The notes beneath the pieces are model-generated. The model was not told where the DNA came from. It worked only from the letters and a program-made list of their open reading frames with translations, and searched no databases. Made by a program: the position numbers and the translations under genes. 64,000 nucleotides of DNA, taken from NCBI RefSeq assembly GCF_039851975.1, contig NZ_CP156660.1, forward strand, positions 868,001 to 932,000, given 5' to 3'. Each line of letters begins with the position of its first letter. Position 1 is the stretch's first letter. This stretch comes from Desulfoscipio sp. XC116 (GTDB lineage Bacteria; Bacillota; Desulfotomaculia; Desulfotomaculales; Desulfallaceae). Shown piece by piece: positions 5,606 through 55,188 of this stretch.

Positions 5606-5630
5606 AAGTCAACAGTCAGCTATTTGGGGG

Positions 5631-5681
5631 CTGACAGGGGGGGCGGAGTTGCCAATTATCAGCAGCCCGTCCCCCTGTCGG
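5631..5681. terminator. Hairpin between convergent exporter genes
   Basis: An inverted repeat (GACAGGGGG near 5633-5641 with CCCCCTGTC near 5670-5678) sits between the convergent MFS and ABC genes. It lacks a clear T-tract in either direction, so function as a bidirectional terminator is only plausible. Confidence 0.35.
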
Positions 5682-5723
5682 TTCTATGATTCTACTTGTT
5701 CAGACAGCAATGTCAAACCGGAC

Positions 5724-7622
5724 CTATACAGCTTCTTTTCCAACATTTACATTCGTAAACTGGCTTTGGTAAAGATCCGCGTAGAAGCCGCCCTGTGCCA
5801 GGAGCTCATAGTGGCTGCCTGTTTCAATAACCTCGCCGTTATTCATTACCAGGATCAAATCAGCATCCCGGATGGTGGATAGCCGGTGGGCAATCACAAA
5901 ACTCGTCCGTCCCTTCATCAGTGTTGTCATAGCCTTTTGGATCAAGAGTTCGGTTCTGGTGTCGACGCTGCTGGTCGCTTCGTCCAGGATCAGAATGGCC
6001 GGATCGGCAAGAATTGCTCTGGCAATGGTTAGCAGCTGCTTTTGCCCCTGCGAAATATTGGAGGCTTCTTCATTGAGAATGGTATTATAACCATCGGGCA
6101 GGGTTCGGATAAAGTGGTCCGCGTGCGCCGCTTTGGCAGCCAGCACAATTTCTTCTTCGGTAGCTCCCGCCCGGCCATAGGCGATATTATCTTTGATAGT
6201 GCCGTTAAAAAGCCAGGTATCCTGCAGCACCATGCCGAACAAAGTACGCAAATCACCGCGTTTTAGATCTCTGATATCGACACCGTCCACAGTGATTCTC
6301 CCGTCAAGCACCTCGTAAAAGCGCATCAAAAGGTTAACGAGGGTGGTTTTGCCGGCTCCGGTCGGACCTACGATAGCGATGGTCTGGCCCGGTTGAACAT
6401 CAATATTCATATCTTCCATCAGAGTGACATCTTCTTTATAGCCGAACCGGACATTCCGGAATTTCACTTCGCCTTTCGGGAAATCGACTTTCCTGGCATC
6501 TTCCCGGTCCGGAATTTGCTCGGCCTCGTCCAGCAGTTCAAACACCCGCTCGGCGGAAGCCACCGTGGACTGGACAATATTAGCGATATTGGCCATCTGG
6601 ATGATGGGATGGGTAAACTGCCTGCAGTATTGGATAAAAGCCTGTATATCACCGATTTCAATCGACTTTTTCATGACCAGAATACTTCCCACAACGCAAA
6701 CCAAAACATAGCCGATATTGCTGATAAAGTTCATTAGCGGAAAGATGATGCCGGAAACAAATTGGGCTTTCCAGCCCGCATGATAAAGTCTTTCGTTAAT
6801 CTCATCGAATCTGGCGATGGATTCGTTCTCCTGCCCGAAAGCTTTTACAATCTGGTGGCCGGTGTACATCTCTTCAACATGTCCGTTGAGTATACCCAGT
6901 TCCTTCTGTTGGGCCGCAAAGTATTTCTGAGAACGCTTGGCGATCATTGCCGTTACGGCAAATGAAAGCGGCAGAGTTACAAGCGCAATTAAAGTCATTA
7001 GCGGACTGATAGTCAGCATCATAATTAAAATGCCGACAATTGTCACGATCGAGCTGATTAACTGGGTTAAACTTTGCTGCAAAGTAGAACTTATGTTGTC
7101 CACATCGTTGGTAACACGGCTTAATATTTCACCGTGAGTGCGTGAATCAAAAAAATTGAGCGGAAGACGGGCCAGTTTATCATGGACATCATTGCGTATA
7201 TCAAAGACCGTCTTTTGGGCTACCCCGGCCATGATATATTGCTGCAGATAATTAAAGAAGGCGCTGAAAATATATAATCCGATTAAAAGCCAAAGTATCT
7301 GTATAATGTACTCAAAGTCAACTCTGGCCCCGGGCACATGGTGATATTTCATCATGACGCCTTCAAACAGCTTGGTAGTGGCTTTGCCCAGTATTTTCGG
7401 GCTCATAATACTGAAAACTGTGCCGAGAATAGCCATGACAAACACGGTTAACAGCCTGACTCTGCGGGGTTTTAAGTAGCCGAGCAGCCTTTTCATGGTT
7501 CCTTTAAAATCCCTGGCATTTTGTACCGGCATACCCATTTGTCCCCGCATCGGGCCTCGGCCGAAGCCTCCTCCGGGGCCTCCGGCCGTTGGTCCCTGCC
7601 CCCTGCGCTCTGTTGTCCTCAT
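5724..7622 (-). CDS. ABC exporter half-transporter, catalytically competent subunit
   Basis: A 632-residue membrane-ATPase fusion (type IV ABC exporter), second gene of a heterodimeric pair like B. subtilis BmrD/YheH or Thermotoga TM288. A Gly/Arg/Met-rich cytoplasmic N-terminus of about 40 residues precedes the six-helix membrane domain; the ATPase domain starts near residue 390. Walker A is GPTGAGKTTL near 418, Walker B LILDEATSS near 544 with the catalytic Glu present, and the H-loop His is present (IAHRLST near 576). The signature is ISQGQ rather than LSGGQ. Its ATG overlaps the stop of the upstream partner (ATGA), indicating translational coupling. Predicted role: drug or lipid export as a heterodimer. 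Confidence 0.9.
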   Translation of the reverse strand: MRTTERRGQGPTAGGPGGGFGRGPMRGQMGMPVQNARDFKGTMKRLLGYLKPRRVRLLTVFVMAILGTVFSIMSPKILGKATTKLFEGVMMKYHHVPGARVDFEYIIQILWLLIGLYIFSAFFNYLQQYIMAGVAQKTVFDIRNDVHDKLARLPLNFFDSRTHGEILSRVTNDVDNISSTLQQSLTQLISSIVTIVGILIMMLTISPLMTLIALVTLPLSFAVTAMIAKRSQKYFAAQQKELGILNGHVEEMYTGHQIVKAFGQENESIARFDEINERLYHAGWKAQFVSGIIFPLMNFISNIGYVLVCVVGSILVMKKSIEIGDIQAFIQYCRQFTHPIIQMANIANIVQSTVASAERVFELLDEAEQIPDREDARKVDFPKGEVKFRNVRFGYKEDVTLMEDMNIDVQPGQTIAIVGPTGAGKTTLVNLLMRFYEVLDGRITVDGVDIRDLKRGDLRTLFGMVLQDTWLFNGTIKDNIAYGRAGATEEEIVLAAKAAHADHFIRTLPDGYNTILNEEASNISQGQKQLLTIARAILADPAILILDEATSSVDTRTELLIQKAMTTLMKGRTSFVIAHRLSTIRDADLILVMNNGEVIETGSHYELLAQGGFYADLYQSQFTNVNVGKEAV

Positions 7623-9346
7623 GCTATCTCCTCCCCGGAAAGCTGTGAAAATACAATCTCACGGTATACTTCACAGGTATTCAAGAGTTCCCTGTGAGTA
7701 CCAATACCGGCAATTTGACCGTTTTCCATAACGATGATCCGGTCGGCGCTCATTACCGTGCTGACTCTCTGGGCCACAATCAGTACGGTTGCGCTGGCTG
7801 TTTCCTTTCTGAGCGCTGCGCGCAGCCCGGCATCTGTTTTATAGTCCAGGGCCGATAGGGCATCGTCAAACACATAGATTTCAGGTTTTCTTACTAAAGC
7901 TCTGGCGATGGAAAGACGCTGCTTCTGTCCACCCGAAACATTAGTGCCCCCCTGTGCGATTATTGCATCAAAACCATCCTTCATGCCGGTGATAAATTCA
8001 GTGGCCTGGGCGGTTTCAGCGGCATGCCTGATTTCTTCATCCGCGGCATCTTCTTTGCCATATCGGATGTTATCAGCAATGGTGCCAGTGAAAAGCACAG
8101 CCTTTTGTGGCACCAACCCTATTTTAGCTCTCAGGTTTTCCTGGGACATTTTTCGCACATCAACGCCGTCGATTAAAATGCTGCCCGTGTCAATATCGTA
8201 GAAACGCGGGATCAGGTTAATTAAAGTTGATTTTCCCGAACCGGTGCCGCCTATGATGGCCGTGACCTCGCCGGGGCCGGCTGTGAAAGAAATATTGCTG
8301 ATCGCGGGCTGCTCGGCGTTGGGATAGCTAAAGGTAACGTTTTTAAACTCTATAAAACCCCTCTGACCGGAAACATGCTTCGTTTTTTCAGCGTCCTTGA
8401 TTTCAGGCACCATATCAAGCACTTCGTTAATTCTCACAGCAGAAGCTTCCGCTCGGGGAAGCATGATAAACATAAAGGAAATCATAATAAGTGAAAACAT
8501 AATTTGCATGGCATATTGCAAAAAGGCCATCATATCACCTACCTGTATGTCGCCGTGGTCAACCCGGATACCGCCGAACCATACAATGGCAATGGTGGAA
8601 AGGTTCATCACCAGCATCATTACAGGCATTAAGGCGGCCATAAGCTTATTGACCTTAATGGCTGTACCGGTCAGGTCGCTGTTGGTCGCGAGAAAACGTT
8701 CCCGCTCATGGTCGAGGCGGTTAAAAGCGCGGACGACTCTGATGCCGGTAAGACCTTCGCGCAGAACCCGGTTTAATCTGTCGAGATTAACCTGCATGGC
8801 CTTAAATAGCGGCACGCCCTTACGGAAAATGAGCAGGATCGTACCGGCCAGGAACGGCAGCACTACGGCGAAGACCAGCGATAACACGGCATCTTTGGAA
8901 ACCGCCATAATAATGCCGCCGATACTCATCATAGGCGCGCCGACCATCATGCGCATCATAACAACCAATACTTGCTGTATCTGGGTAATATCGTTGGTGG
9001 TCCTGGTAATCAGAGAGGCGGTGCCCAACTGATCAAACTCGTGGAGCGAATAGCTCTCCACCCGCGAAAAAACTATGCCGCGCAGATTTCTGCCCAGTCC
9101 TGCGGCTATTTTGGAAGATAAAAAGCTTGCTGTAATCAGGCATAAAGCACTACCGGCAGCGAAAAACAGCATTAAAGCACCGGTTCTGATAATGTACCGG
9201 TTATCACCGGTGACGATACCAATATCCACAATATCGGACATCAGAGTCGGCAGATACAGGTCGGCAAGGGATTGAAAAAGCACAAGCACCAAAACACTGG
9301 CCACAGACCAGGCGAATGGCTTTAAGAACCTTAATAGCTTAATCAT
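7619..9346 (-). CDS. ABC exporter half-transporter, degenerate-site subunit
   Basis: A 575-residue ABC exporter subunit with an N-terminal six-helix membrane domain and a C-terminal ATPase, partner of the next gene. Walker A (GGTGSGKSTL near 365) and a canonical signature (VSGGQ) are intact. Walker B reads VFDDALSALD near 491, so the catalytic Glu is Asp, and the H-loop His is Gln (VAQRVST near 522). This is the pattern of the BmrC/TM287 class: one of the two nucleotide sites in the heterodimer is catalytically poor. A GGGAGAAG ribosome site precedes the ATG. It lies 50 bases downstream of the MarR regulator, same strand, so the three genes form one operon. Confidence 0.9.
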   Translation of the reverse strand: MIKLLRFLKPFAWSVASVLVLVLFQSLADLYLPTLMSDIVDIGIVTGDNRYIIRTGALMLFFAAGSALCLITASFLSSKIAAGLGRNLRGIVFSRVESYSLHEFDQLGTASLITRTTNDITQIQQVLVVMMRMMVGAPMMSIGGIIMAVSKDAVLSLVFAVVLPFLAGTILLIFRKGVPLFKAMQVNLDRLNRVLREGLTGIRVVRAFNRLDHERERFLATNSDLTGTAIKVNKLMAALMPVMMLVMNLSTIAIVWFGGIRVDHGDIQVGDMMAFLQYAMQIMFSLIMISFMFIMLPRAEASAVRINEVLDMVPEIKDAEKTKHVSGQRGFIEFKNVTFSYPNAEQPAISNISFTAGPGEVTAIIGGTGSGKSTLINLIPRFYDIDTGSILIDGVDVRKMSQENLRAKIGLVPQKAVLFTGTIADNIRYGKEDAADEEIRHAAETAQATEFITGMKDGFDAIIAQGGTNVSGGQKQRLSIARALVRKPEIYVFDDALSALDYKTDAGLRAALRKETASATVLIVAQRVSTVMSADRIIVMENGQIAGIGTHRELLNTCEVYREIVFSQLSGEEIA

Positions 9347-10965: not shown

Positions 10966-11227
10966 ATATCAATTGTTGATAAAAAACTTTAACCTTACAG
11001 TGAACTTGTTCAGCTAGAAGCTGAACATCAGGGCTTCAGATGGGGATTCTACCCCACTTGAATGAAATAGGAAGGGGTTGTGTTGCATAACGGGCTAAAT
11101 AGTTCGTAATACAATAGCTTTTTATAAAGGAAAGGAAGCATAGGTTATGCGCTGGCTTACCAGGAAAAACAGCCTGATGTGCGCTATCCCGAGGGCAAAA
11201 TAATGATTGGCTGAGCAGAGACTATTG
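10966..11227. other. Intergenic stretch with hairpin, no gene recognised
   Basis: About 260 bases before the degV remnant. It contains a hairpin near 11033-11063 (TTCA..TGGGG and CCCCA..TGAA arms with two mismatches) and a short open stretch near 11142-11212 that I cannot assign. The hairpin vaguely resembles ends of IS200/IS605-type elements, but no transposase is near. Confidence 0.35.
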
Positions 11228-11320
11228 CTATACCGCGCAGTAAGTCATACCGATGACCCGGGGGCCGACGTGGGTGCCCATGACAGGCCCGAATTCCGCC
11301 CGCCGTGCATTGAAAAGCCG
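11228..11320 (-). pseudogene. DegV-family 3' remnant
   Basis: The minus strand encodes a short C-terminal piece, FGPVMGTHVGPRVIGMTYC. It matches the highly conserved end of DegV fatty-acid-binding proteins (GPVIGTHVGPGALG type). The preceding 250 or so residues of the family are absent. It is a decayed leftover, not an expressed protein. Confidence 0.55.
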
Positions 11321-11401
11321 GAGGAAGGCTATGCTAAAGATGACTCTAAAAAAACATAATATGTTATTGACAGCACGTGCATGGCCACGTAAAATAGTTA
11401 T

Positions 11402-11540
11402 CAAAGGGGAGTAGCTGCCCGGTCCATGGGTTGTCAAATCGTCAATACGGCTGTAGCCCGGTTTGACATGGCTTAACGATTAAGTAAGCTAAGCGAGACC
11501 ATCACGAGCTTTGCGTGAGGGTTTCGCTTTTTTATTTATA
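11402..11540 (+). promoter_or_regulatory. Probable yybP-ykoY manganese riboswitch
   Basis: The leader of the CaCA exchanger gene has the conserved AAAGGGGAGTAGCT start (11403-11416) and the AAGCGAGACC 3' element (11490-11500) of the yybP-ykoY family, with paired segments between. The 3' element is also the 5' arm of a terminator: a 16-bp stem with two mismatches closes at 11521-11528 and is followed by T6ATTT. Ligand-bound aptamer would therefore sequester the terminator arm and turn expression on. Known members sense Mn2+ and control Mn2+ export genes, which fits the downstream antiporter. Aptamer limits are approximate. Confidence 0.72.
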
Positions 11541-11566
11541 AAAAAATCTAAGAAAGGAACTGTTGC

Positions 11567-12556
11567 ATGTTAATTTTATTTTACTTAGTTGGTGGTCTGG
11601 CTTTAATTCTATTAAGCGCGGAGATTTTTACCAACAGTATAGAATGGCTGGGAAAAAGATTAAAGCTATCCGAAGGTGCGGTGGGCAGTGTTCTGGCGGC
11701 TGTAGGCACTGCTTTACCTGAATCGATGATCCCCTTAATGGCTATTTTATTCGGTACGGGGGAGGCAGCCCATGAGATAGGAATCGGTGCTATTCTGGGT
11801 GCGCCGTTTATGTTGGCCACACTGGCGCTGTCCATTACGGGCATCGCCGCGCTGGTATACACGGTGAACGGTCGGAAACGGGAATTTATGCTGATTGATC
11901 ATGCCGTTATGAAAAGGGACCTGCGATTTTTTATTACGGTATACTCATTGGCCATAATAACCGCCTTTTTACCGGCCGCTTACAAACATCCCGTAGCTAT
12001 AATATTAGTGCTTGCCTACGCTTTTTACGCTGCTCGTACCATTAAAGCGGGAAGTACCCTTGGTGGGTCTGAACTGAAGCCATTGCATTTTGCCAGAAGG
12101 CACGAACAACCTGTGACTCCGGTAATATTGCTGCAGGTGTTTACCGCTCTTGCAGGGATTATTATCGGTGCGCACTTCTTTGTAGACGGCATTAAGCATG
12201 TGGCCGAACTTATGCACATATCACCCTTTGTATTATCCATTTTCATCGCTCCGATTGCCACGGAGCTGCCGGAAAAATTTAATAGCCTGATTTGGGTGCG
12301 CCAGGGTAAGGACACTCTTGCGCTGGGCAATATTACCGGGGCGATGGTATTTCAAAGTTCGATGATCCCCGCCCTGGGGATTGCTTTGACGCCCTGGGTA
12401 CTGTCCGATTTGGCTCTGGTCAGCGCTATACTGGCTCTGGCGGGTGCAGGTCTGGTTTACCTAAGCCTGCAGATAAAGAAGTCCATTCGCCCCGCAACGT
12501 TGGTTTTAACCGGCGGGTTGTATTTGATATTTGTTGTGTCCGCATTCATCATTTAA
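11567..12556 (+). CDS. CaCA-family cation exchanger (sodium/calcium-type)
   Basis: A 329-residue membrane antiporter of the Ca2+:cation superfamily. The two inverted alpha repeats are visible: GSVLAAVGTALPES near residues 43-56 and FIAPIATELPEKFNS near 223-237, each with the acidic residue that binds the cation. Hydrophobic segments fit ten membrane helices in two halves. Family members exchange Ca2+ or Mn2+ for Na+ or H+. The upstream yybP-ykoY riboswitch suggests Mn2+ efflux here. An AAAGGAAC ribosome site precedes the ATG. Confidence 0.85.
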   Translation: MLILFYLVGGLALILLSAEIFTNSIEWLGKRLKLSEGAVGSVLAAVGTALPESMIPLMAILFGTGEAAHEIGIGAILGAPFMLATLALSITGIAALVYTVNGRKREFMLIDHAVMKRDLRFFITVYSLAIITAFLPAAYKHPVAIILVLAYAFYAARTIKAGSTLGGSELKPLHFARRHEQPVTPVILLQVFTALAGIIIGAHFFVDGIKHVAELMHISPFVLSIFIAPIATELPEKFNSLIWVRQGKDTLALGNITGAMVFQSSMIPALGIALTPWVLSDLALVSAILALAGAGLVYLSLQIKKSIRPATLVLTGGLYLIFVVSAFII

Positions 12557-35072: not shown

Positions 35073-35261
35073 ATGAATATTAAATATCGCGATGCTCAAA
35101 AAAAGGATTGTTCGAAAGTTGCTGAGTATATTAATTATGCTTCAGATGGAGTACTTGATTTCCTTTTTGAAGGTACTGTTGGTGGTATGACAGTAACACA
35201 GATATTAACCCATGGCCTTTTGCCGAAGACTAAGCCGGGGCGTGGCGGCGCGCTGGCTTAG
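35073..35261 (+). pseudogene. Truncated GNAT acetyltransferase (N-terminal part)
   Basis: MNIKYRDAQKKDCSKVAEYI and the following 30 residues look like the beginning of a GNAT acetyltransferase, with a good GGGGGG ribosome site. After about 50 residues the frame runs into the GC-rich hairpin and serpin-tail segment and stops. The acetyl-CoA motif is missing, so the product is inactive. Confidence 0.6.
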
Positions 35262-35274
35262 CCGCGCCGCCGCC
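35244..35274 (-). repeat. GC-rich hairpin behind serpin tail, copy 1
   Basis: GGCGGCGCG and CGCGCCGCC form a 9-bp stem around CTGGCTTAGC. The same element follows each serpin copy (38675-38706 and 42012-42046) and is probably their terminator. Confidence 0.6.
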
Positions 35275-35304
35275 AGCTTAATATGGTGGTCATTGATCTA
35301 GATC

Positions 35305-35380
35305 CGTTATAGATCCGTTACAGTGCCGATGAAGATGGGCAGATTCGTATCGCAGTCGATGAGCAGGTAAACAAACGGCG
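35305..35380 (-). pseudogene. Serpin 3' remnant (third copy)
   Basis: The minus strand encodes FVYLLIDCDTNLPIFIGTVT, identical to the end of the two intact serpins at 38726-39982 and 42081-43331. About 1.2 kb of the gene is deleted and the tail is joined to the upstream region of the ada copy. Confidence 0.8.
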
Positions 35381-35466
35381 GCAAAAATAAACACATGTCA
35401 GGAAATAGCCGGATTTTTATAGAAGATATGTTATAATAATTCAAGCTCAAACAAAGAGGCGAGAAA

Positions 35467-35838
35467 ATGTTAGCGATTGATAACATCGGCCTATATGGCC
35501 GCATTCAACGCAGAGGACACACGTTTTGACGGCCGTTTTTTTGAAGGCATATCGGCCAGGGGAATATACTGTCGTCCGGTGTGTCGAACAAAACAGCCGC
35601 AAGCCGAAAACTGTACCTTTTATTCCACGGCGGCGGAAGCTGGACAGCCCAATACATTGCAATGCGAATAATGGAATGGCCTGATGCTTTCCTTGCAACA
35701 GATGTTGGTGTGAAAAAGGCGTTTGAACCCCATTCAGCAAAGGAATTGCTTGAAATGACGGAAGCATGGCGGCCCTGGCGCAGCTATGTGACAATCAACC
35801 TTTGGAACTCACTGCAAGCGTGGAAATTAGGAGGTTTA
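35467..35838 (+). pseudogene. ada-alkA pseudogene (frameshift and 1.1-kb deletion)
   Basis: The 5' end copies the intact gene at 40185 (same leader and ribosome site, MLAIDNIGLY for MLATDSTGLY). An extra G after codon 10 shifts the frame. After the zinc-finger region the sequence jumps from GGCGGAAGCTG to GGAAGCTGGACAGCCC, losing the AraC domain and most of the glycosylase. The last 65 codons of alkA are present and read on into ogt without a stop. Confidence 0.85.
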
Positions 35839-35841
35839 AAG

Positions 35842-36381
35842 ATGTATTACTCAACAACTTATCCTTCGTCTGTAGGTCTGCTTACGTTAGCAAGTGACGG
35901 TGAAAGTCTCGTTGGTTTGTGGATAGAGGGGCAGAAGTACCACGGCGATACCATACCCGAAGCAATGACGGAGAAGGACGCTATGCCGGTTTTTAACGCT
36001 GTAAAAAAGTGGTTGGACAGTTATTTTGCCGGTGCAAAGCCTGACGTTTCCGAATTGCCGTTAGCGCCCATTGGCAGCGAGTTTCGTCATGGAGTATGGA
36101 GCATTTTACGTGCGATCCCCTACGGTGAAGTTATCACTTATGGCGACATTGCGAAAAAAATGGTCGTAAAAATGAACAAGGAAAGTATGTCCAGTCAAGC
36201 AGTGGGCGGGGCTGTCGGCCACAATCCCATTTCAATTATAATTCCCTGCCACCGGGTTGTAGGGTCTAACGGCAGCTTGACGGGGTATGCCGGTGGCATT
36301 GGCATAAAGAAAAAACTGCTTGAGTTGGAGGGTGTTGACATGTCCCTCCTGTTCTCGCCCCAAAAAGGTACTGCGCTCTGA
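35842..36381 (+). CDS. ogt: Methylated-DNA-protein-cysteine methyltransferase
   Basis: A 179-residue suicide repair protein that removes the methyl group from O6-methylguanine. The active-site motif IIPCHRVVGSNG near residues 129-140 carries the acceptor Cys, and GHNP before it and GYAGG after it are typical. The helix-turn-helix part reads IPYGEVITYGDIAKKM. AGGAGG lies seven bases before the ATG at 35842. Upstream in-frame codons come from the broken alkA tail. In the second repair module the corresponding gene (41672) is truncated, so this is the only complete ogt here. Confidence 0.92.
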   Translation: MYYSTTYPSSVGLLTLASDGESLVGLWIEGQKYHGDTIPEAMTEKDAMPVFNAVKKWLDSYFAGAKPDVSELPLAPIGSEFRHGVWSILRAIPYGEVITYGDIAKKMVVKMNKESMSSQAVGGAVGHNPISIIIPCHRVVGSNGSLTGYAGGIGIKKKLLELEGVDMSLLFSPQKGTAL

Positions 36382-36422
36382 TAACCGTAGACTAAGGGGA
36401 CAATTAACAAGGAGGTTTTAGT

Positions 36423-37196
36423 TTGACAAAATATGTTGCTGTAGCTGGAAAGGGTGGCGTAGGGAAAACAACCTTTATAACTTTGATGTTAAGACAAATA
36501 ATACGTGAAAAAGAAATTTCCATTTTGGCTGTCGATGCTGATCCTAATGCAAATTTAAATGAAACATTGGGAATAACGGTCACTTCTACTATTTCCGAAG
36601 TTTTAGAGGAAAACAAGAATATAAAGGCTTCTCAGGACGAAACTTCCAAAGCATCTTTTTTTAATAGACTGGATCAATGCCTGCTTAAAACTCCCGGCTT
36701 TGATTTTCTAACTATGGGTGCTCCGCAAGGTTTCGGTTGTTATTGTTATCCTAATAACATTTTGCGGATGTATTTGGAGACACTTGGTAATAATTATGAT
36801 TTTGTGATAATTGATTCTGAAGCTGGAATGGAGCATATTAGCCGGCTGACAATTCCCCACATTGATATCATGTTTGTTGTTAGTGATTCCTCAGGTCGTG
36901 GAATTCGCTCAGCCGGACGAGTTCATGACTTGATCCGGGGATTACAGGCTGATGTTGATAAGATTTATTTGATAGTTACTCATACGGTTGAAAATAGCCT
37001 AAAGTCTCTGGCTGATGAAATTGCTCAAACAGGGTTACAGCTAATTGGAGATATTCCACTAGATGACTTAATATTTCAACAGGATATTATAGGTAAACCG
37101 CTCTTTGACTTGCCTGATAAAGCGATTTCACTGCAGGCGGTGGATAAAATACTACGACAAGCGGGAGTCGGGGGACGGTTCTCTGACTCAAAATGA
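36423..37196 (+). CDS. cooC: CooC-like carbon monoxide dehydrogenase maturation ATPase
   Basis: A 257-residue MinD/ArsA-type ATPase. Deviant Walker A GKGGVGKTTF at residues 9-18, LAVDADPNANL near 37-47, and the metal motif CYCYPN near 110-115, where CooC1 uses a C-x-C pair to bind nickel or zinc in the dimer. DFVIIDSEAGMEHISR is the CooC switch region. CooC drives Ni insertion into CO dehydrogenase in the acetyl-CoA pathway. TTG start with AGGAGG eight bases upstream. No CODH gene is in the window. The last ten codons (GVGGRFSDSK) are written by an inserted REP-like repeat, so the native C-terminus was altered. Confidence 0.85.
   Translation: MTKYVAVAGKGGVGKTTFITLMLRQIIREKEISILAVDADPNANLNETLGITVTSTISEVLEENKNIKASQDETSKASFFNRLDQCLLKTPGFDFLTMGAPQGFGCYCYPNNILRMYLETLGNNYDFVIIDSEAGMEHISRLTIPHIDIMFVVSDSSGRGIRSAGRVHDLIRGLQADVDKIYLIVTHTVENSLKSLADEIAQTGLQLIGDIPLDDLIFQQDIIGKPLFDLPDKAISLQAVDKILRQAGVGGRFSDSK
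37165..37189 (+). repeat. REP-like dispersed repeat, copy 1
   Basis: GAGTCGGGGGACGGTTCT followed by CTGACTC. It overlaps the 3' end of cooC. Followed by AAAATGAAGGAGTCAAAGAA, nearly as in copy 4 at 52712. Confidence 0.8.
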
Positions 37197-37218
37197 AGGA
37201 GTCAAAGAAGGAGAGAAG

Positions 37219-37263
37219 AAACCGAGGATAGATAATAAATCCATCCTCGGTTAATTGTTTTTT
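37219..37263 (+). terminator. Intrinsic terminator of cooC
   Basis: AACCGAGGAT and ATCCTCGGTT form a perfect 10-bp stem, followed by AATTGTTTTTT. Confidence 0.85.
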
Positions 37264-37296
37264 AGTCGCCCTGGGAGGATTTTGTTATCACACGCT

Positions 37297-37660
37297 TTAT
37301 TGCTTTGACAGTAACTTATAAAGCACCTGCGCCATTTCCGCCCTGGTCGTTATACCCATGGGAGAAAGTTTGCTTTCATTTCCACCGATGGTTCCGGTTT
37401 CCACCAGCAGTGTTATGGCTTCTTTGGCCCAGGGAGCAATTTCATCTGCATCCGTGAAAGCGGACAACGGTTTACCGGCTGTTCCTTCCGGCAGTCTCCC
37501 AATGGCCTTCAATGCATTGTGCAATAGGGTTAACATTTCCTGACGGGTGATTTCTTTGTCTGGGGCAAACATATTGTTTCCCACGCCGCCCGCTATATTT
37601 AACCGCTTTGCCGCCGCCAGATAACCGGTATAATAGGTGGCTCCGGCATCTGTAAAATTT
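37297..37660 (-). pseudogene. SLH-domain protein, 3' fragment
   Basis: The minus strand encodes about 120 residues of S-layer homology repeats: NFTDAGATYYTGYLAAAKRL, then FAPDKEITRQEMLTLLHNAL, then LSPMGITTRAEMAQVLYKLL, ending in a stop. SLH motifs bind pyruvylated cell-wall polymers. The frame has no start and breaks upstream at about 37660. A shorter copy of the same end lies at 52811-52884, again beside a REP-like repeat. Confidence 0.75.
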
Positions 37661-37734
37661 AAGTATACTGCAAGAATTAGCAGTACGCGCTACAAATAAT
37701 AAAGAACCCGTCTATCCCATAACGGGAAAACCGT

Positions 37735-38020
37735 GCTTGAGAATATCAGGGGGAGATAAGATTGCATTAATTGGAGAAAACGGTGTTGGCAAGACAACCT
37801 TGTTTAAAACAATATGCGGCTGGGATAAAGACTGCAGTGGCACAGTGCCATCAACCCTGCGGTTAAAATCGGCTATTTTGCCCGGAAACTTAATAATCTG
37901 CAGGGTGACGCCAGTATTCTTGATAATGCTTTAGATGAAGGAGCTACAGTTTCGGAAGCTGGATTATTCCTTGCTGTTTAAAGGGGATGATGTTTATAAA
38001 AAAACAGCCAACTTGAGCAT
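37735..38020 (+). pseudogene. ABC-F ATPase fragment with frameshifts
   Basis: LRISGGDKIALIGENGVGKT (Walker A) leads into TLFKTICGWDKDCSGTV. After a frameshift, VKIGYFARKLNNLQGDASIL and LDEGATVSEAG follow, then another shift and FKGDDVYKKTANLS just before the expected signature motif. This is the middle of an ABC-F protein. It ends against the isochorismatase gene. Confidence 0.75.
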
Positions 38021-38023
38021 CCC

Positions 38024-38566
38024 TTATTTTACGATTTTAATAAACTGCCTAAACAGTTCTCCTTCCGAGGTGTGCATGATTTCAAACAAGGCCATCTTGG
38101 TCGTAGTAATGACCGCACCCAACTCTCGCATTCGTTTCAAAGCCATGTCTCGATTCCATGCGGTACGTGAGGATACGGCATCAGATGCTACATGGACCTG
38201 GTAAGACGACTCTTTTAGAAGGCCGCTAACAGTTTGATAAACACAGACATGGGCCTCAATACCTGCTACAAGAAGCTGCTCTCGTTTTGTTTCCTTAAGC
38301 CTGTGCAAAAATTCTTCGTTTAAGCAGGCATTGAAGGTCATTTTTTGTATCGGAGGTAGATCTCCCAACAATCCACGCAGTTCAGGAATTGTCCTTCCCA
38401 GTCCATTAGAATTCTGTTCCACCAGGATAATGGGGAGTTTAAAAAGCTGGGCTGCCTTAATCAGTTTTTGCCAATTAGCATAGATTAGATGGGATTCATA
38501 TACTGTTCGGGCCAGTAACCCTTGTATATCTATAATCAACAAGGCGGTTTTATCCATAAGCAACAT
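38024..38566 (-). CDS. Isochorismatase-family hydrolase
   Basis: A 180-residue cysteine hydrolase. The triad is visible: Asp13 in ALLIIDIQG, Lys75 in PPIQKMTFNA, and Cys108 in VAGIEAHVCVYQT with the preceding cis-peptide region. Length is normal for the stand-alone family (YcaC-like or nicotinamidase-like). The substrate is unknown. The ATG has GAGGGGG about eight bases upstream. It is convergent with the ABC-F fragment and followed upstream by a REP-like hairpin and serpin A. Confidence 0.83.
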   Translation of the reverse strand: MLLMDKTALLIIDIQGLLARTVYESHLIYANWQKLIKAAQLFKLPIILVEQNSNGLGRTIPELRGLLGDLPPIQKMTFNACLNEEFLHRLKETKREQLLVAGIEAHVCVYQTVSGLLKESSYQVHVASDAVSSRTAWNRDMALKRMRELGAVITTTKMALFEIMHTSEGELFRQFIKIVK

Positions 38567-38600
38567 CGGGCATCCCCCTCTTGACTTGAATAACTAAAAA

Positions 38601-38655
38601 GTCAGGGGACGGTTCTTGGAGTCGTTTATTCTGAGTCGAAGAACCGTCCCCTGAC
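38601..38655. repeat. REP-like dispersed repeat, copy 2 (inverted pair)
   Basis: GTCAGGGGACGGTTCTT (38601-38617) and its exact complement AAGAACCGTCCCCTGAC (38639-38655) form a 17-bp perfect hairpin with a 21-base loop. This is the paired (BIME-like) form of the repeat. Confidence 0.85.
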
Positions 38656-38674
38656 TCCTGACTCGCCAAGCTTC

Positions 38675-38706
38675 CGGCGGCGGCGCGCTGGCTTAGCCGC
38701 GCCGTC
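38675..38706 (-). repeat. GC-rich hairpin behind serpin A
   Basis: Copy 2 of the GGCGGCGCG/CGCGCC hairpin, 20 bases past the serpin A stop. Likely terminator. Confidence 0.6.
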
Positions 38707-38725
38707 GCGTTTAATACGGTGGTTA

Positions 38726-39982
38726 CTAATCTATATCCGTTACAGTGCCGATAAAGATGGGCAGATTTGTATCGCAGTCGATGAGCAGGTAAACAAACGG
38801 CCGGTCCAGGTATACTGTTGGGGGTTCATCCAACAATGCACTTCCACATAGCATTTCCACCGCGGTGGCCGCGCCCGCCTTGGTGCCTTTTTCATCCACG
38901 GCGATGTAGGTCTTGTGGAGCACCCGGCTGATAAAGATATTACCATTCACAGGTTCACTAATTCCTGTAAAATCGGCGCTATCCGCATCGAAAGCATCCG
39001 TTATGCCCATAGCTTTGAGAATATCGTTCATCTCCACAGCGTATTCGCTTTCGAACTTGGGGATCGCGGTTTCTACCGCGACATCCTGCGCGTTGTTGAG
39101 GGTGCTCATAAGTCCGTCGCCGGTAAGGGAAGCGATATAATCGGCAACGGAGACGCCCTCGTTCGGCAGCAGGGCGGCAAAGGCGTATCTCCGGTCGGCG
39201 TAGTATTTGACAAAGCCTGTGGCATTGCCGTCCTCCAGGTAGCGGTGCTCGGTGTTATACATCATCTCCACGTCCCGGGTTGCCCCGGACTCCGTCGTGA
39301 AAGCGCCGTCCCTTACCTGATCTTCGCTGTAGATATTCGCCCACTCGGCGTCGAAGGCCAGGGCGTTGATGAGATACATAATGGCTCCGTTCGGGATCTC
39401 GTCGAGGATGTTTTCAATCATGCCGTCCGTGTTGTCGCTAACCCAGGCGTTGATATCCTTTAGCGTGGTTTCATCAAAAGCCGCTTTGTAGATGGAAGCG
39501 CTGTAATAATCGGCGTTTGTCTGGAGAAAATCCTTTTTCACCGTCAGGTTTTTGTCGTCTCTAAACCAAATAGAATCGGCGACACTCACCTTATACTTAT
39601 CGCCCGACGGCAGGTTCTGCAGGTAAGTGTGCAGGTAGTCGTTGAGCTCCGGAACGTGAAGGCCGAATGCATCCTCCATCTGCGCCAGCGTTGCGCCCTC
39701 GGCGCCGTTGGCCGTCATGGCGAGGGCGCATAACACGGAAAGGGGAGAGACAAGGGTGTTTTCTTCGGGAACCGCGCTGTTCTGCAACAGTTTTACGGCA
39801 AAGTTCGCAATTGCCCCGGAGTCGCCGCCGGCCAAATCCACAACAGCAGCGTTTACGGTATTGGCCTTCACGCCGGACATCAGGTCCGCGGCCTGTGCGG
39901 ATACCCCGCGGTCGGAGAGAAAAAACAGCGTGGAAGCCAGCAGCATAAAACCAAACACTCCCGCGATCATTCGTTTTTTCAT
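38726..39982 (-). CDS. Secreted serpin A (serine protease inhibitor)
   Basis: A 418-residue serpin with an N-terminal signal/anchor segment (MKKRMIAGVFGFMLLASTLF) and cleavage likely after VSAQA. The serpin core is clear: NTLVSPLSVLCALAMTANGA, MYLINALAFDAEW, FAALLPNEGVS and the C-terminal RPFVYLLIDCDTNLPIF. The hinge GTKAGAATAV (small residues) is of the inhibitory type. The reactive loop reads VEMLCGSALLDEPPTVYLD. Start chosen at 39982 because GAAAGGAG lies eight bases upstream; the in-frame ATG at 40012 contains that site inside its frame. It is divergent from ada-alkA. The target protease is unknown. Confidence 0.9.
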   Translation of the reverse strand: MKKRMIAGVFGFMLLASTLFFLSDRGVSAQAADLMSGVKANTVNAAVVDLAGGDSGAIANFAVKLLQNSAVPEENTLVSPLSVLCALAMTANGAEGATLAQMEDAFGLHVPELNDYLHTYLQNLPSGDKYKVSVADSIWFRDDKNLTVKKDFLQTNADYYSASIYKAAFDETTLKDINAWVSDNTDGMIENILDEIPNGAIMYLINALAFDAEWANIYSEDQVRDGAFTTESGATRDVEMMYNTEHRYLEDGNATGFVKYYADRRYAFAALLPNEGVSVADYIASLTGDGLMSTLNNAQDVAVETAIPKFESEYAVEMNDILKAMGITDAFDADSADFTGISEPVNGNIFISRVLHKTYIAVDEKGTKAGAATAVEMLCGSALLDEPPTVYLDRPFVYLLIDCDTNLPIFIGTVTDID

Positions 39983-40184
39983 ATTGCTGCTCCTTTCAAA
40001 TAATTTATTCATTAGTCATTGGACGAAAATTCCGGGGAAGTTGTTCCTCTATGGTAATAATTTTCATTGATCTGATAAAGACAATCTTGCCTGCCGTGGC
40101 AAAAATAAACACATGTCCGAAAATAGCCGGATTTTTGTAGAGGATCTGTTATAATAATTAGAGCTCTAACAAAGGGGCGAGAAA

Positions 40185-41660
40185 ATGTTAGCAACTGATA
40201 GTACCGGCCTATATGCCGCATTCAAGGCAAAGGACGCACGTTTTGACGGCCGTTTCTTTGTAGGCATATCGACCACGGGAATATACTGTCGTCCGGTGTG
40301 TCGAGCAAAGCAGCCGAAAGCTGAAAACTGTACCTATTATTCCACGGCGGCGGAAGCTGAACAAGCGGGATACCGGCCATGCCTTTTATGCAGGCCGGAA
40401 CTTGCACCTGGTTTGTCAATAACTGACGCTACTGTTGCTTTGGTTCATCGTGCGGCAAGAATGTTAGAGGAAAACTGCGGAAGCGGCCGGAGTTTAGATG
40501 AGCTCGCCGGGCGGCTTGGCTGCACGGACCGGCATTTACGGCGTGTGTTTAAGGCAGAATATAACGTGTCGCCGATACAATATCTCCAAACATGCCGATT
40601 GCTTTTTGCAAAAAATCTACTTATGGACACAAACTTGCCCGTGCTCGAAGTTGCAATGACTGCCGGATTTGGCAGCTTGCGCCGCTTTAATGACCTTTTC
40701 AAAAAGCATTACCAGCTTTCACCTACAATCTTGCGCAAAAGAATGTCGGAAGAAAAGAAACAAAGCAGCAATATAACTTTAGCTTTGGGTTACCGTCCGC
40801 CTTATCGCTGGGAAGAAATGCTGGCTTTTCTTGCTGGGCGTGCAATCTCCGGAGTGGAGGTTATCAAAGGCGGCGAATATTTGCGTACCGTGCATTTGGT
40901 AGATGCAGACCAAAAACATGTATATGGTTGGCTGCGGGTAGGCAATAAGCCGGAAAAGAATACCTTAATAGTTACAGTGAGCGAAAGGCTGTTGCCGGTG
41001 TTGCCGCAAGTATTGGCAAAGGTGCGTCAGCTATTCGATTTATATTGTGACCCGGAAGCGGTATATGAAACGCTTGCGCCAATGAACAATATCCGTCCCG
41101 GCCTTTGCGTTCCGGGGACTCGCCTGCCCGGCAGCTTTAATGCTTTTGAAATGGCGGTTAGGGCGGTTTTGGGACAGCAAATTACCGTGAAAGCAGCGAG
41201 TACGTTAGCGGCAAGGTTGGTTAACGCTTACGGTACGCCTATCCAAACCGGCATTGAGGGATTAACCCATGTTTTCCCCTCGCCCGAAGATATACTTGCT
41301 TTAGAGGGGCCGATCGAAAACCATCTTGGTCCCTTGGGTATTATTGCGGCGCGGGCAAGAAGTATCTATGAATTGGCAAAGTCATCGGAGCAGGGAAAAA
41401 TTGATTTTGGTCTTTGCGCCCAGCCGGAAATAGAAATGAAAAAGCTGTTGGCTATTCCGGGTATCGGAAGCTGGACAGCCCAATACATTGCAATGCGAAC
41501 AATGGAATGGCCTGATGCCTTCCTTGAAACAGATGTTGGCGTGAAAAAGGCGCTTGAACCCCATTCAGCAAAGGAATTGCTTGAAATGGCAGAAGCGTGG
41601 CGGCCCTGGCGCAGCTATGCGACAATCAACCTTTGGAATTCATTGCAAACGCGGAATTAG
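40185..41660 (+). CDS. Ada-AlkA fusion: methylphosphotriester sensor, AraC regulator and 3-methyladenine glycosylase
   Basis: A 491-residue fusion. Residues 1-75 are the Ada zinc domain: Cys35, Cys39, Cys66 and Cys69 bind zinc, and Cys35 accepts methyl from DNA phosphotriesters. Residues about 80-190 are two AraC helix-turn-helix motifs (LAGRLGCTDRHLRRVFKAEY). Residues about 200-290 are the AlkA N-domain (YRPPYRWEEMLAFLAGRAI). Residues about 310-490 are the HhH-GPD glycosylase (VRAVLGQQITVKAAS, IPGIGSWTAQYIAMR, catalytic Asp in ETDVGVKKAL). Methylation of the sensor would activate transcription of itself and ogt. Promoter: TATAAT near 40150. The downstream ogt is truncated, but an intact copy lies 4 kb upstream. 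Confidence 0.93.
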   Translation: MLATDSTGLYAAFKAKDARFDGRFFVGISTTGIYCRPVCRAKQPKAENCTYYSTAAEAEQAGYRPCLLCRPELAPGLSITDATVALVHRAARMLEENCGSGRSLDELAGRLGCTDRHLRRVFKAEYNVSPIQYLQTCRLLFAKNLLMDTNLPVLEVAMTAGFGSLRRFNDLFKKHYQLSPTILRKRMSEEKKQSSNITLALGYRPPYRWEEMLAFLAGRAISGVEVIKGGEYLRTVHLVDADQKHVYGWLRVGNKPEKNTLIVTVSERLLPVLPQVLAKVRQLFDLYCDPEAVYETLAPMNNIRPGLCVPGTRLPGSFNAFEMAVRAVLGQQITVKAASTLAARLVNAYGTPIQTGIEGLTHVFPSPEDILALEGPIENHLGPLGIIAARARSIYELAKSSEQGKIDFGLCAQPEIEMKKLLAIPGIGSWTAQYIAMRTMEWPDAFLETDVGVKKALEPHSAKELLEMAEAWRPWRSYATINLWNSLQTRN

Positions 41661-41671
41661 GAGAACTAAAA

Positions 41672-41947
41672 ATGTACTACTCAACAACTTATCCTTCGTC
41701 TGTAGGTCTGCTTACGTTAGCAAGTGACGGTGAAAGTCTCGTTGGTTTGTGGATAGAGGGGCAGAAGTACCACGGCAATACCATACCCGAAGCAATGATG
41801 GAAAATGACGCTATGCCGGTTTTTAACGCTGTGAAAAAGTACTTGGACAGTTATTTTGCCGGTAAAAAGCCTGACGTTTCCGAATTGCCGTTAGCTCCCA
41901 TTGGCGGTGAGTTTCTCGAAACCATTGCGGGCTTGAGAACCAAATAG
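41672..41947 (+). pseudogene. ogt: Truncated ogt
   Basis: The first 75 or so residues are nearly identical to the intact ogt at 35842 (MYYSTTYPSSVGLLTLASDG...). After GGEF the sequence departs into unrelated bases and stops. The Cys active site (PCHRV) is missing, so no methyltransferase activity is possible. Confidence 0.88.
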
Positions 41948-41952
41948 AGACA

Positions 41953-41988
41953 GAGTCAGGGGAGAGTCAGGGGACGGTTCTTTGACTC
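41953..41988 (+). repeat. REP-like dispersed repeat, copy 3
   Basis: GAGTCAGGGGA followed by GAGTCAGGGGACGGTTCT and TTGACTC: a partial duplication of the unit's first half. Confidence 0.8.
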
Positions 41989-42080: not shown

Positions 42081-43331
42081 TTATAGATCCGTTACAGTGC
42101 CGATGAAGATGGGCAGATTTGTATCGCAGTCGATGAGCAGGTAAACAAACGGCCGGTCCAGGTGTACTGTTGGGGGTTTATCCAACAATGCACCGGTCAG
42201 CTTCATTTCCACCGCGGTGGCCGCGCCCGCCTTGGTGCCCTTTTCATCCACGGCGATGTGGGTCTTATGGAGCACCCGGCTGATAAAGATATTGCCCGCG
42301 GATTCGACAATTCCTGTAAAATCGGCGCTATCCGCATCGAAAGCATCCGTTATGCCCATAGCTTTGAGAATATCGTTCATCTCCACAGCGTATTCGCTTT
42401 CGAACTTGGGGATCGCGGTTTCTACCGCGACATTCTGCGCGTTGTTGAGGGTGCTCATAAGTCCGTCGCCGGTAAGGGAAGCGATATAATCGGCAACGGA
42501 GACGCCCTCGTTCGGCAACAGGGCGGCAAAGGCGTATCTCCGGTCGGCGTAATACTTGACAAAGCCTGTGGCGTTGCCGTCCTCCAGGTAGCGGTGCTCG
42601 CTGCTATACATCATCTCCACGTCCCGGGTTGCCCCGGACTCCGTCGTGAAAGCGCCGTCCCTTACCTGATCTTCGCTGTAGATATTCGCCCACTCGGCGT
42701 CGAAGGCCAGGGCGTTGATGAGATACATAATGGCTCCGTTCGGGATCTCGTCGAGGATGTTTTCAATCATGCCGTCCGTGTTGTCGCTAACCCAGGCGTT
42801 GATATCCTTTAGCGTGGTTTCATCAAAAGCCGCTTTGTAGATGGAAGCGCTGTAATAATCGGCGTTTGTCTGGAGAAAATCCTTTTTCACCGTCAGGTTT
42901 TTGTCGTCTCTAAACCAAATAGAATCGGCGACACTCACCTTATACTTATCGCCCGACGGCAGGTTCTGCAGGTAAGTGTGCAGGTAGTCGTTGAGCTCCG
43001 GAACGTGAAGGCCGAATGCATCCTCCATCTGCGCCAGCGTTGCGCCCTCGGCGCCGTTGGCCGTCATGGCGAGGGCGCATAACACGGAAAGGGGAGAGAC
43101 AAGGGTGTTTTCTTCGGGAACCGCGCTGTTTTGCAACAGTTTTACGGCAAAGTTCGCAATTGCCCCGGAGTCGTCGCCGGTCAGATCCACAACAGCAGTG
43201 TTTACGGTATTGGCCTTCACGCCGGACATCAGGTCCGCGGCCTGTGCGGATACCCCGCGGTCGGAGAGAAAAAACAGCGTGGAAGCCAACAGCATAAAAC
43301 CAAACACTCCCGCGATCATTCGTTTTTTCAT
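42081..43331 (-). CDS. Secreted serpin B (paralogue of serpin A)
   Basis: A 416-residue serpin, nearly identical to serpin A along most of its length, including signal segment and hinge GTKAGAATAV. Differences cluster at the reactive loop: here VEMKLTGALLDKPPTVHLD against VEMLCGSALLDEPPTVYLD. The scissile-bond region therefore differs while the scaffold is kept, pointing to different target proteases. Start by the same argument as serpin A (GAAAGGAG site before 43331). It is followed on the other side by arsR, divergently. Confidence 0.9.
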   Translation of the reverse strand: MKKRMIAGVFGFMLLASTLFFLSDRGVSAQAADLMSGVKANTVNTAVVDLTGDDSGAIANFAVKLLQNSAVPEENTLVSPLSVLCALAMTANGAEGATLAQMEDAFGLHVPELNDYLHTYLQNLPSGDKYKVSVADSIWFRDDKNLTVKKDFLQTNADYYSASIYKAAFDETTLKDINAWVSDNTDGMIENILDEIPNGAIMYLINALAFDAEWANIYSEDQVRDGAFTTESGATRDVEMMYSSEHRYLEDGNATGFVKYYADRRYAFAALLPNEGVSVADYIASLTGDGLMSTLNNAQNVAVETAIPKFESEYAVEMNDILKAMGITDAFDADSADFTGIVESAGNIFISRVLHKTHIAVDEKGTKAGAATAVEMKLTGALLDKPPTVHLDRPFVYLLIDCDTNLPIFIGTVTDL

Positions 43332-43533
43332 ATTGCTGCTCCTTTCAAATAATTTATTCATTAGTCATTGGACGAAAATTTCAGGGTAGTTGTTCCTATG
43401 GTAATGATCTTCACTGAGCCTGATAAAAAAAAGATTTGGAGATTTTAAAGTAGATACAAAGAAGAGATAATTTTAACATATGCCGGAAATTGATATGGTA
43501 CCAGTTTGATTTTACAATTATTTAGATAAGCTG

Positions 43534-51979: not shown

Positions 51980-52710
51980 AAACATGGATTGCCTTTTGGA
52001 ACATATTAAAAAAGGATATGCAGAATTATTATCTAAAAGCCCCGAATATTAGTTGGGGATTGATTTTTCCTTTGGCCTGGACGCTTATGTTTTTTATTCG
52101 ATCCGAGCAAGCAGTCGATATAAATGAAATTCTTCCCGGCGTTATGGCAATGAGTATATTATTCGGAACGACTTCCATGCTGGCCGTCACTATTACTTTT
52201 GAACGTAAAGGTCGTTCCTTCGACAGGTTACTGCTCGCACCGGTCAGTCTTAATATAATGGTGCTTGCTAAAACCTTCGGTGCAATACTTTTTGGTATTA
52301 TAAACGCTTTTATACCTATTATGCTTTCTTCCTCTGTTATTAACTTTACAAATGTTAACTGGCTGATCGTTTTGTTAGCTGTTCTTCTTATTGCCGTGAG
52401 TTCAACTCTGCTGGGATTAGTGATTGCCACTTCCGCTAAAGAAGTATTTGAAGCGCAAACATTCTCTAATTTTTTCCGGTTTCCGATGCTTTTTTTATGT
52501 GGCCTATTCATACCGATAAATGATTTGCCTGTTTTTTTGCAGCCATTTTCCTATATCCTTCCTCTGACATATGGAACAGATGTATTAAATGAAGCCTTGC
52601 TTAATGCAGGGTTAATAAATATATGGGCTGATATAGCCGCATTGATTGGATTTACCGTGTTGCTATTTATTTTGAGCCTAAGCAACATAAATAAGAAATG
52701 GATATTATAG
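51976..52710 (+). CDS. ABC-2 type permease
   Basis: A 244-residue membrane protein with six hydrophobic segments. LIFPLAWTLMFFIRSEQ follows an amphipathic start, then TFERKGRSFDRLLLAPVSLN (the conserved intracellular loop of ABC-2 permeases) near residues 75-94, and LFLCGLFIPINDLPVFLQPFSYILPLTYG near the end, a hallmark of the family. The start codon overlaps the ATPase stop (ATGA). A REP-like repeat begins two bases after its stop. Confidence 0.85.
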   Translation: MKTWIAFWNILKKDMQNYYLKAPNISWGLIFPLAWTLMFFIRSEQAVDINEILPGVMAMSILFGTTSMLAVTITFERKGRSFDRLLLAPVSLNIMVLAKTFGAILFGIINAFIPIMLSSSVINFTNVNWLIVLLAVLLIAVSSTLLGLVIATSAKEVFEAQTFSNFFRFPMLFLCGLFIPINDLPVFLQPFSYILPLTYGTDVLNEALLNAGLINIWADIAALIGFTVLLFILSLSNINKKWIL

Positions 52711-52711
52711 A

Positions 52712-52736
52712 GAGTCGGGGGACGGTTCTTTGACTC
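52712..52736 (+). repeat. REP-like dispersed repeat, copy 4
   Basis: GAGTCGGGGGACGGTTCT followed by TTGACTC, then AAAAATGAAGGAGTCAAAGAA as in copy 1. It abuts the permease stop codon. Confidence 0.8.
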
Positions 52737-53712: not shown

Positions 53713-53737
53713 GAGTCAGAGAACCGTCCCCTGACTC
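53713..53737 (-). repeat. REP-like dispersed repeat, copy 5
   Basis: On the minus strand GAGTCAGGGGACGGTTCT followed by CTGACTC. It covers the last codons of the ABC-F gene, as copy 1 does for cooC. Confidence 0.8.
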
Positions 53738-55188
53738 TCAAGGCGCCGGTCTTTAATGGTATAGATCCTGTCTGCCACATTTTCCAGCAATCTTTGGTCA
53801 TGGGAAATGAACAGAATAGTTCCCGCATAATTTTTCATTAGTATTTCCAATGCTTCCACGCCGGGTAAGTCAAGAAAGTTGCCGGGTTCATCCATCAGCA
53901 GGATGTTATATTGCCCCAAAAGCATTTTGACCAACAATAATTTGATAATCTCTCCGCCGCTTAAAACCGATAATTTTTTTTGGATGTCATTTGGTGAAAA
54001 ACCCATGGAGGCAAGTACGGAACGAATTTCTGACTGCCGATAGTCGCAGTTTTCTTCCATAAACGACATGACTCCTTGATCGCGCCGGAATTTATAGCCG
54101 TTTTGGGCAAAGTAACCGATTTCCGCTTTTGGAGAAACAAAGATACCGGTTTCCCGATCCAAAATCATCCGCAGCAGCGTGGTCTTTCCCGCCCCGTTTC
54201 CGCCGGTGAAAGCCACTTTCCCTCCCAGCGGAATTTGAAAAGATGTCTTCTCAAACAGCACTTTATCGCCAAAACGCTTGTTGATTTCCGTTCCCATAAT
54301 GGGATAGGGATTATGCAGCGCCAGCGCCTTGCTTTGACGAAAGCGGATGGCCCGGGCTTTTTCAGGAGCTTGCACAGCACCCATGGTCTCTATGCGGTGT
54401 TCCATGGACTTGGCGGCATTGTAAAGGGTTTTTTGCTTGCTTCCCATTGTTTTTTGATGCCCAAGGCGGCCGCTGCTTTTGGTCATGTCTTTGGGAGCCG
54501 CTCCTTTTACTTTTTGCTCGACCTTGCGCGCCTGCTTGCGTTTATCTTTGGCGGCCCGTTCCAGACGGTCCCGCTCTGCAACAAATTGTTCATAGCGGAT
54601 TGCCAGATTTTGAAGTTCTTCCTCCTTCTGGCGGAGATAGTCGGAATAATTTCCCCAGTACTCTGTAATTTTACCGTCCTTCAGTTCCCAGATTTTATTC
54701 ACGACTTCATCGAGAAAGTAACGGTCATGGCTGATGATTAGCAATGCGCCTGAGAAATATTTGAGCTGACCGATCAAAAAGTCAATTCCCTCGCGGTCGA
54801 GGTGACAGGTAGGTTCATCGGCAAAGAGGCCATGCACCTGCCCGGAGAGTGCTTGGGCGACCTTCAGCCGGGTTTCTTCACCGCCGCTCATATTCTGTGT
54901 ATCCAGCCCGCTGACACCAAGCCTACCTATTAGAGAATAATCCACGGATTCCTGCACGGCAGTTTCCTCTAACTGCGGGATATACGCGAAATTCCCTGAG
55001 CGTTTTACCTTGCATCCGGGTGGAATTAATTCTCCAAGCAGCACTTTGAGCAAAGTGCTTTTCCCTGCTCCATTGCTGCCGACCAATCCGATACGGTCAT
55101 CATCATACAACGCCAGTTCCTTAATATTTAATACCTCGCGGCTTGTATATTCCACGCAAATATCATTTGCCTTTAATAACAATTCCAT
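53716..55188 (-). CDS. ABC-F ribosomal protection-type ATPase
   Basis: A 490-residue protein with two ATPase domains and no membrane segment. Domain 1: Walker [12 protein letters not shown] near 37-47, signature MSGGEETRL near 99-107, Walker [12 protein letters not shown] near 120-130. A charged linker of about 90 residues ([20 protein letters not shown]...) joins domain 2: [11 protein letters not shown] near 330, LSGGEIIKL near 409, [12 protein letters not shown] near 430. Such ABC-F proteins of the Vga/Lsa/Msr type dislodge ribosome-targeting antibiotics. The length and long linker fit. AGGAGG lies seven bases before the ATG. Attenuator-like hairpins and a leader peptide precede it. Its last residues (SQGTVL) come from the REP-like repeat. 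Confidence 0.86.

Follow-up and report, generated by a model that had tools for sequence, protein, structure and literature searches.

Complementary gene loss in duplicated ada-alkA/ogt modules of a Desulfoscipio chromosome, and a candidate operator of Ada-AlkA

Two copies of an alkylation-repair module, in which ada-alkA is followed by the O6-methylguanine-DNA methyltransferase gene ogt, lie in a 64,000-base window of the genome of Desulfoscipio sp. XC116 (bases 868001-932000 of contig C1, 4,259,676 bases, in an assembly of 4,261,206 bases and 2 contigs). Module 1 combines an ada-alkA relic with an intact ogt (ogt1), and module 2 an intact ada-alkA with an ogt remnant (ogt2). We consider it likely that an operon was duplicated in tandem, that the copies degenerated in complementary fashion, and that ogt, though still constrained, has been drifting away from control by Ada. 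Within this account the lesions, their polarity, the failure of our searches to find a further module and the constraint on ogt1 are established. We infer that the host is Desulfoscipio sp. strain L, which came from contaminated groundwater and is putatively a sulfate reducer; its genome, with a chromosome of 4,259,676 bp and a plasmid of 1,530 bp, is a hybrid assembly of PacBio and Illumina reads (PMC12896167).

In outline, this Desulfoscipio lineage would have acquired an ada-alkA/ogt alkylation-response operon next to a divergent serpin gene, and operon and serpin together would then have undergone tandem duplication. In copy 1 a frameshift and the deletion of 1,114 nt between short repeats, in either order, would have destroyed ada-alkA, and in copy 2 a rearrangement would have removed the active-site half of ogt. 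Complementary loss after duplication, each copy keeping a different sub-part, is a known process (duplication-degeneration-complementation), and in the present case each copy has lost what the other retains. Unlike in that model, what is divided between the copies is entire genes of an operon, and native genes probably cover the function as well. The case is ordinary in kind and well supported, one of complementary gene loss rather than of a pair on which the cell clearly depends. It is a compact example of an operon split by duplication and complementary loss, in which the promoter evidence allows one to ask whether regulation was lost simultaneously. More useful are the operator and the finding that ada-alkA has been lost repeatedly while ogt stayed.

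Lesions of the two modules and their polarity

The modules are 90% identical in DNA over 267 nt and 93% over 452 nt, which excludes chance likeness, and their alignment bore out all the lesions that the original prediction, made from the letters of the window, had named. In module 1 the ada-alkA relic (35467-35825, forward strand) carries a 1-nt insertion at about 35497 that brings the Ada frame to a TGA stop at 35527. Further on, the offset between the modules jumps from 4717 to 5831 at CGGAAGCTG, where 1,114 nt have been deleted. The junction (35634-35642, forward strand) is a direct repeat with module 2 counterparts at 40351-40359 and 41465-41473; the repeats had been predicted correctly, but they are 9 nt long, one more than was first given. 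The helix-turn-helix (HTH) domain, AlkA_N and most of the glycosylase domain went with the deleted DNA, and the relic retains only part of the Ada domain and the alkA tail. A further 1-nt difference, which the original prediction had missed, removes the alkA stop and leaves the tail open in frame into ogt1. A working fusion of the AlkA tail with Ogt was considered and is not favoured: the frame is open, but the Ada start meets the stop at 35527 and the alkA tail is short. The gene ogt1 (35842-36381, forward strand) is intact as predicted, encoding 179 amino acids with both MGMT domains, including the DNA-binding domain with its PCHR active site, and a Shine-Dalgarno-like AGGAGG is retained for it. 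A sequencing error is an unlikely source of the frameshift, because the assembly combines PacBio and Illumina reads; moreover, it cannot account for the 1.1-kb deletion, which alone suffices to kill the ada-alkA of module 1.

Module 2 is the mirror image. Its ada-alkA (40185-41660, forward strand) is intact and encodes an Ada-AlkA fusion, with the Ada metal-binding, AraC-type HTH, AlkA_N and HhH-GPD domains all in one polypeptide. Residues C35, C39, C66 and C69, which we take to be the metal-site cysteines of Ada, are present in this protein and in 35 of the 35 external rows covering those positions; the second pair (C66 and C69) went with the deleted DNA in the module 1 relic. As had been predicted, ogt2 (41672-41915, forward strand) is cut before its active site: only the N-terminal domain is left, and homology to ogt1 stops at 41915. 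The remnant is joined to unrelated sequence (41916-41948, forward strand), and bases 41915-41948 are 91% like a 34-nt stretch at chromosome position 3693930. Judged by eye, that place is apparently part of a nucleotidyltransferase gene.

The direction of these losses was assessed against relatives. In 36 genome_contigs loci, selected by protein similarity and not by operator sequence, a near-full-length ogt lies just downstream of ada-alkA in 28; it is partial or broken in four (L011, L012, L027 and L039), and four have no ogt in the DNA at hand (L019, L033, L034 and L037). The two-gene operon is thus ancestral. The ada/alkA pieces that are in register (leaving out the 10 codons that precede the insertion) differ between the copies at 14 residues; the commoner residue is found in module 2 at 13 of these and in module 1 at one, and residue 30 has the common residue in neither copy. 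Over ogt codons 1-81, with a congener (genome G001) as outgroup, private residues number none in copy 1 and four in copy 2, those of ogt2 including the change of a tryptophan that 32 of 33 relatives retain. Fisher's test on the 2 x 2 table of residues (ada/alkA or ogt, copy 1 or copy 2) gives p = 0.0016. Comparison with relatives thus indicates a real reciprocal decay, of ada-alkA in copy 1 and of ogt in copy 2, and together with the lesions these polarised substitutions uphold the claim that each copy lost one function after duplication.

Both copies might instead be decaying junk, ogt1 being intact merely for want of time. The 37.3-37.9 kb stretch of the window resembles gene fragments (short open reading frames, by eye), and the operator of module 1 is damaged (see below). 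Against this stand the intact state of ogt1, with no lesion and with AGGAGG kept, and its ratio of nonsynonymous to synonymous substitution rates (dN/dS) relative to the G001 ogt, which is 0.15 overall and 0.09 in codons 82-179, although these counts include time before the duplication. At columns conserved in at least 90% of sequences, from which tblastn pieces below 45% identity had been dropped, ogt1 deviates at 2 of 75. On the recent branch, 243 nt of ogt hold 3 private changes in copy 1 and 10 in copy 2 (p = 0.09). We regard decay of both copies as quite improbable.

An origin of the modules by separate acquisition from similar donors, with no tandem duplication, is highly improbable. The operon has a patchy distribution that reaches distant taxa, as such an origin would have it; yet the copies are 90-93% alike in DNA, whereas protein identity to the closest external ada-alkA found is 82%, 18 sites in the 243 nt of ogt are common to both copies against G001, and the flanking serpins were copied as well.

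A third or complete module elsewhere, which would have told against complementary loss, was not found in domain and DNA searches of the genome. Ada metal-binding matches number two, both within the window, and so do MGMT DNA-binding matches, one being ogt1 and the other at 3393200. One protein besides that of module 2 has an HhH-GPD domain (at 1971114; endonuclease III-like, we would guess). The MGMT at 3393200 is of the native type of the genus: genomes G002-G006 each have an MGMT sharing 67-89% identity with it, and it is 34% identical to ogt1. The genome also has matches to AAG glycosylase (233.5 bits) and to the AlkC/D family (51.5 bits), and none to Tag. As the native Ogt, AAG and AlkC/D-like protein probably also protect the cell, neither module is likely to be essential. 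The suggestion that both modules are now needed is therefore unsupported, apparently redundant native genes being present for the ancestral function.

The candidate operator and the control of ogt1

Upstream of ada-alkA lies a 19-nt candidate operator, ATGTCCGAAAAYRGCNRGA; in 34 of 36 relatives a spacer of 17-19 nt separates it from a -10-like hexamer downstream. Its core, GTCCGA, is present in 36 of the 36 operators counted, which come from 34 of the 36 genome_contigs loci and from L044 and L045. Loci L034 and L041 were left out because their protein matches start after the Ada domain, and neither holds an operator-like site with at most 2 mismatches. Two weak cases were kept: L025, whose best site has 3 mismatches, and L027, whose site lies 309 nt upstream of the match with a poor -10. 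In 27 of 34 loci the -10 is extended by a preceding TG. A scan of 511,254 bases, made up of the window, the 36 loci, L105, L118 and L119, placed every site having 2 mismatches or fewer before ada-alkA, its relics or ogt. By record titles and tree labels the loci are assigned to Bacillota, Spirochaetota, Pseudomonadota, Planctomycetota and others, though several are metagenome bins whose assignment may be wrong. No published account of this operator was found among the matches listed in the open-licence literature. If confirmed, the operator would allow the prediction of Ada-AlkA regulons in many anaerobes.

Module 2 has a perfect match to the consensus (40113-40131, forward strand), the sole perfect site in the genome, followed by a TATAAT hexamer with TG extension (40150-40155, forward strand). 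The counterpart in module 1 (35395-35413, forward strand) is damaged, which the original prediction had missed: its 2 mismatches, at positions 6 and 8, both strike the invariant core, and neither position varies in any of the 36 operators counted. The TATAAT hexamer of module 1, also with TG extension (35432-35437, forward strand), lies 18 nt after its operator. Scanned with at most 2 mismatches, the whole genome holds three sites, namely the two module promoters and one at 1339573; with at most 3 it holds 19, against 30 for a reversed control pattern. Since the operator is no commoner than the control at 3 mismatches, weight is placed only on the perfect site and on the 2-mismatch site in the copied promoter. 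Perfect operators occur in 3 of the 113 genomes of the class that were searched (this one, G033 and G038).

These changes suggest that the operator of module 1 is probably weak and that ogt1 is no longer strongly controlled by Ada. The presumed activation of ogt1 in trans by Ada is weakened, as both changes fall at positions without variation among relatives. A promoter within the relic was also considered, at a 9/12 consensus match upstream of ogt1 (35541-35570), and was rejected as chance-level: the consensus scan of the region gave 12 sites against 9.5 (standard deviation 3.1) in shuffles. The same scan misses the promoters of both modules, neither of which has a -35 match.

In the account we favour, the product of module 2 would be a methyl-sensing Ada-AlkA that activates its own promoter through the 19-nt operator, which adjoins the missing -35 element. 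This proposal is based on the position of the operator and on analogy with Ada of Escherichia coli (PMC4437013). Transcription of ogt1 would proceed from the leftover promoter of module 1, with its extended -10, and translation from the gene's own Shine-Dalgarno sequence; expression would be basal and, because the operator core has decayed, largely independent of Ada.

Known systems offer partial parallels. In Mycobacterium smegmatis, as here, the Ada A domain is fused to AlkA and Ogt is a separate methyltransferase (PMC7432924); the operon of the window differs in being duplicated and split, with one gene lost per copy. Electrophoretic mobility shift assays of the M. smegmatis system showed DNA binding that was not sequence-specific, and that paper uses neither the word promoter nor the word operator (PMC7432924). 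In the Ada regulon of E. coli, too, a methyl-sensing Ada domain lets the protein activate its own gene along with further repair genes; the boxes there are AAT and GCAA, whereas the candidate operator is a different 19-nt sequence (PMC4437013). Cada2 of Caulobacter is likewise an Ada-type regulator that has diverged and has an operator sequence to itself, but it recognises GCAA and CGG boxes and carries the methyltransferase domain itself (PMC10957082).

Parallel losses of ada-alkA and spread of the operon

The loss of ada-alkA with retention of both promoter and ogt has parallels in other genomes. In a tree of ogt1, 19 of the 38 operon loci (the 36 genome_contigs loci, L044 and L045) and 16 further MGMT loci, the ogt of the congener G001 is the sister of ogt1 (support 100/98), and the two are 90% identical in DNA. 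There ada-alkA is reduced to a 22-codon leader running in frame from the Ada start into ogt (L090, G001:C8:62938-63195). Counted from the operator columns, the G001 operator has three mismatches, one at position 6 as in module 1 but with another base. A single MGMT and no Ada-AlkA were found in G001, a draft of about 50 contigs in which a gap could hide genes. The native Ogt was not found in G001 either, and the ogt of the operon appears to have replaced it. In G033, of the same order, a full-length ogt follows a perfect operator, and a deletion has taken out ada-alkA between roughly codon 22 and roughly codon 419.

Such cases could reflect a recurrent splitting of the operon, in which ada-alkA is excised internally, the promoter, start region and ogt are kept, and the operator core then decays and ogt becomes a housekeeping gene independent of Ada. 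The 19-nt operator with its 17-19-nt spacer would be a regulatory site not described before and common to Ada-AlkA proteins of many phyla. We put this general scheme forward tentatively, giving it somewhat less than an even chance. A further arrangement is found in L039, a Clostridia draft, where a relic ogt (7457-7783) follows ada-alkA and a separate ogt (11225-11953) lies nearly 4 kb downstream with its own one-mismatch operator and a TATAAT hexamer. Both ada-alkA and the distant ogt of this locus show a frame change, which may be a draft error.

Several observations weigh against the account of duplication followed by release from Ada. In the 243-nt ogt comparison, the asymmetry of nucleotide changes (3 against 10) has p = 0.09. 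Comparing the copies with each other gives dN/dS values, all from small counts, of 0.91 for the longer Ada piece, 0.43 for ogt, 0.37 for the first 10 codons and 0.25 for the alkA tail, the last being low for a long-dead gene. Synonymous divergence is 0.055 between serpins A and B (described below), less than the 0.10-0.15 of the module pieces (0.38 in the 10-codon piece), so that a single duplication cannot date everything; gene conversion is possible. As regards control, two changes in 19 need not abolish operator binding, and the -10, TG extension and spacing of module 1 are intact. Over the 90 nt before ada, private changes (with G001 as reference) number 6 in copy 2 and 2 in copy 1; the promoter region of copy 1 is therefore not decaying faster overall, though the operator of copy 2 is perfect. 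The perfect operator of G033 means that decay of the operator does not always follow loss of ada-alkA, and the operator at the distant ogt of L039 makes control by Ada in trans possible in principle.

Some of these points would suit a working pair of half-modules, with the Ada-AlkA made by module 2 acting in trans at the module 1 operator to switch on ogt1, and with a full adaptive response now depending on both. Such a pair accords with an intact and constrained ogt1, with the fact that two of the three operator-like sites of the genome are the module promoters, and with the distant ogt of L039 and its promoter. We nevertheless consider it unlikely, given the two changes at invariant operator positions, the redundancy suggested by the native-type Ogt, AAG and AlkC/D-family proteins, and the retention of ogt in G001, where no Ada-AlkA was found.

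The ada-alkA/ogt pair is patchily distributed yet closely similar across distant, often anaerobic taxa (L007-L042), with for example 81-82% protein identity to spirochaete records, a pattern that suggests frequent horizontal transfer. Carriage of the operon by mobile elements was considered and set aside. Only one (L121) of the six viral_contigs stretches with a perfect operator holds the operon, and it is apparently the same DNA as the Yanshouia locus L036; neither gene was found by tblastn in the other five. Plasmid relatives are all less than 60% identical (36 of 36 records at E 1e-60).

The serpin neighbourhood

Both modules sit within an array of serpin genes, which the original prediction had missed. 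Serpin A (38726-40012, reverse strand) adjoins module 2 and is divergent from it, and serpin B (42081-43361, reverse strand) lies beyond the end of module 2. Module 1 is preceded by the relic of a serpin 3' end (35244-35379, reverse strand), comprising the C-terminus and the region downstream, which shares 97% identity with the corresponding part beside serpin B; the remainder of the relic's own serpin is gone. In G001, too, the operon's counterpart is preceded by a serpin 5' relic, so that serpin and operon probably already adjoined each other when the duplication took place.

By eye, serpins A and B both have a start resembling a signal peptide. They differ at 19 of 428 alignment columns, and 5 of these differences fall within residues 388-396, which we take to be the likely reactive-site loop. 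These paralogues may have different protease targets. Repeated elements like GAGTCAGGGGACGGTTCTTTGACTC occur at 37165-37189, 38600-38657, 41964-41988, 52710-52736 and 53713-53739 of the window and at chromosome position 2817194, partly in inverted pairs.

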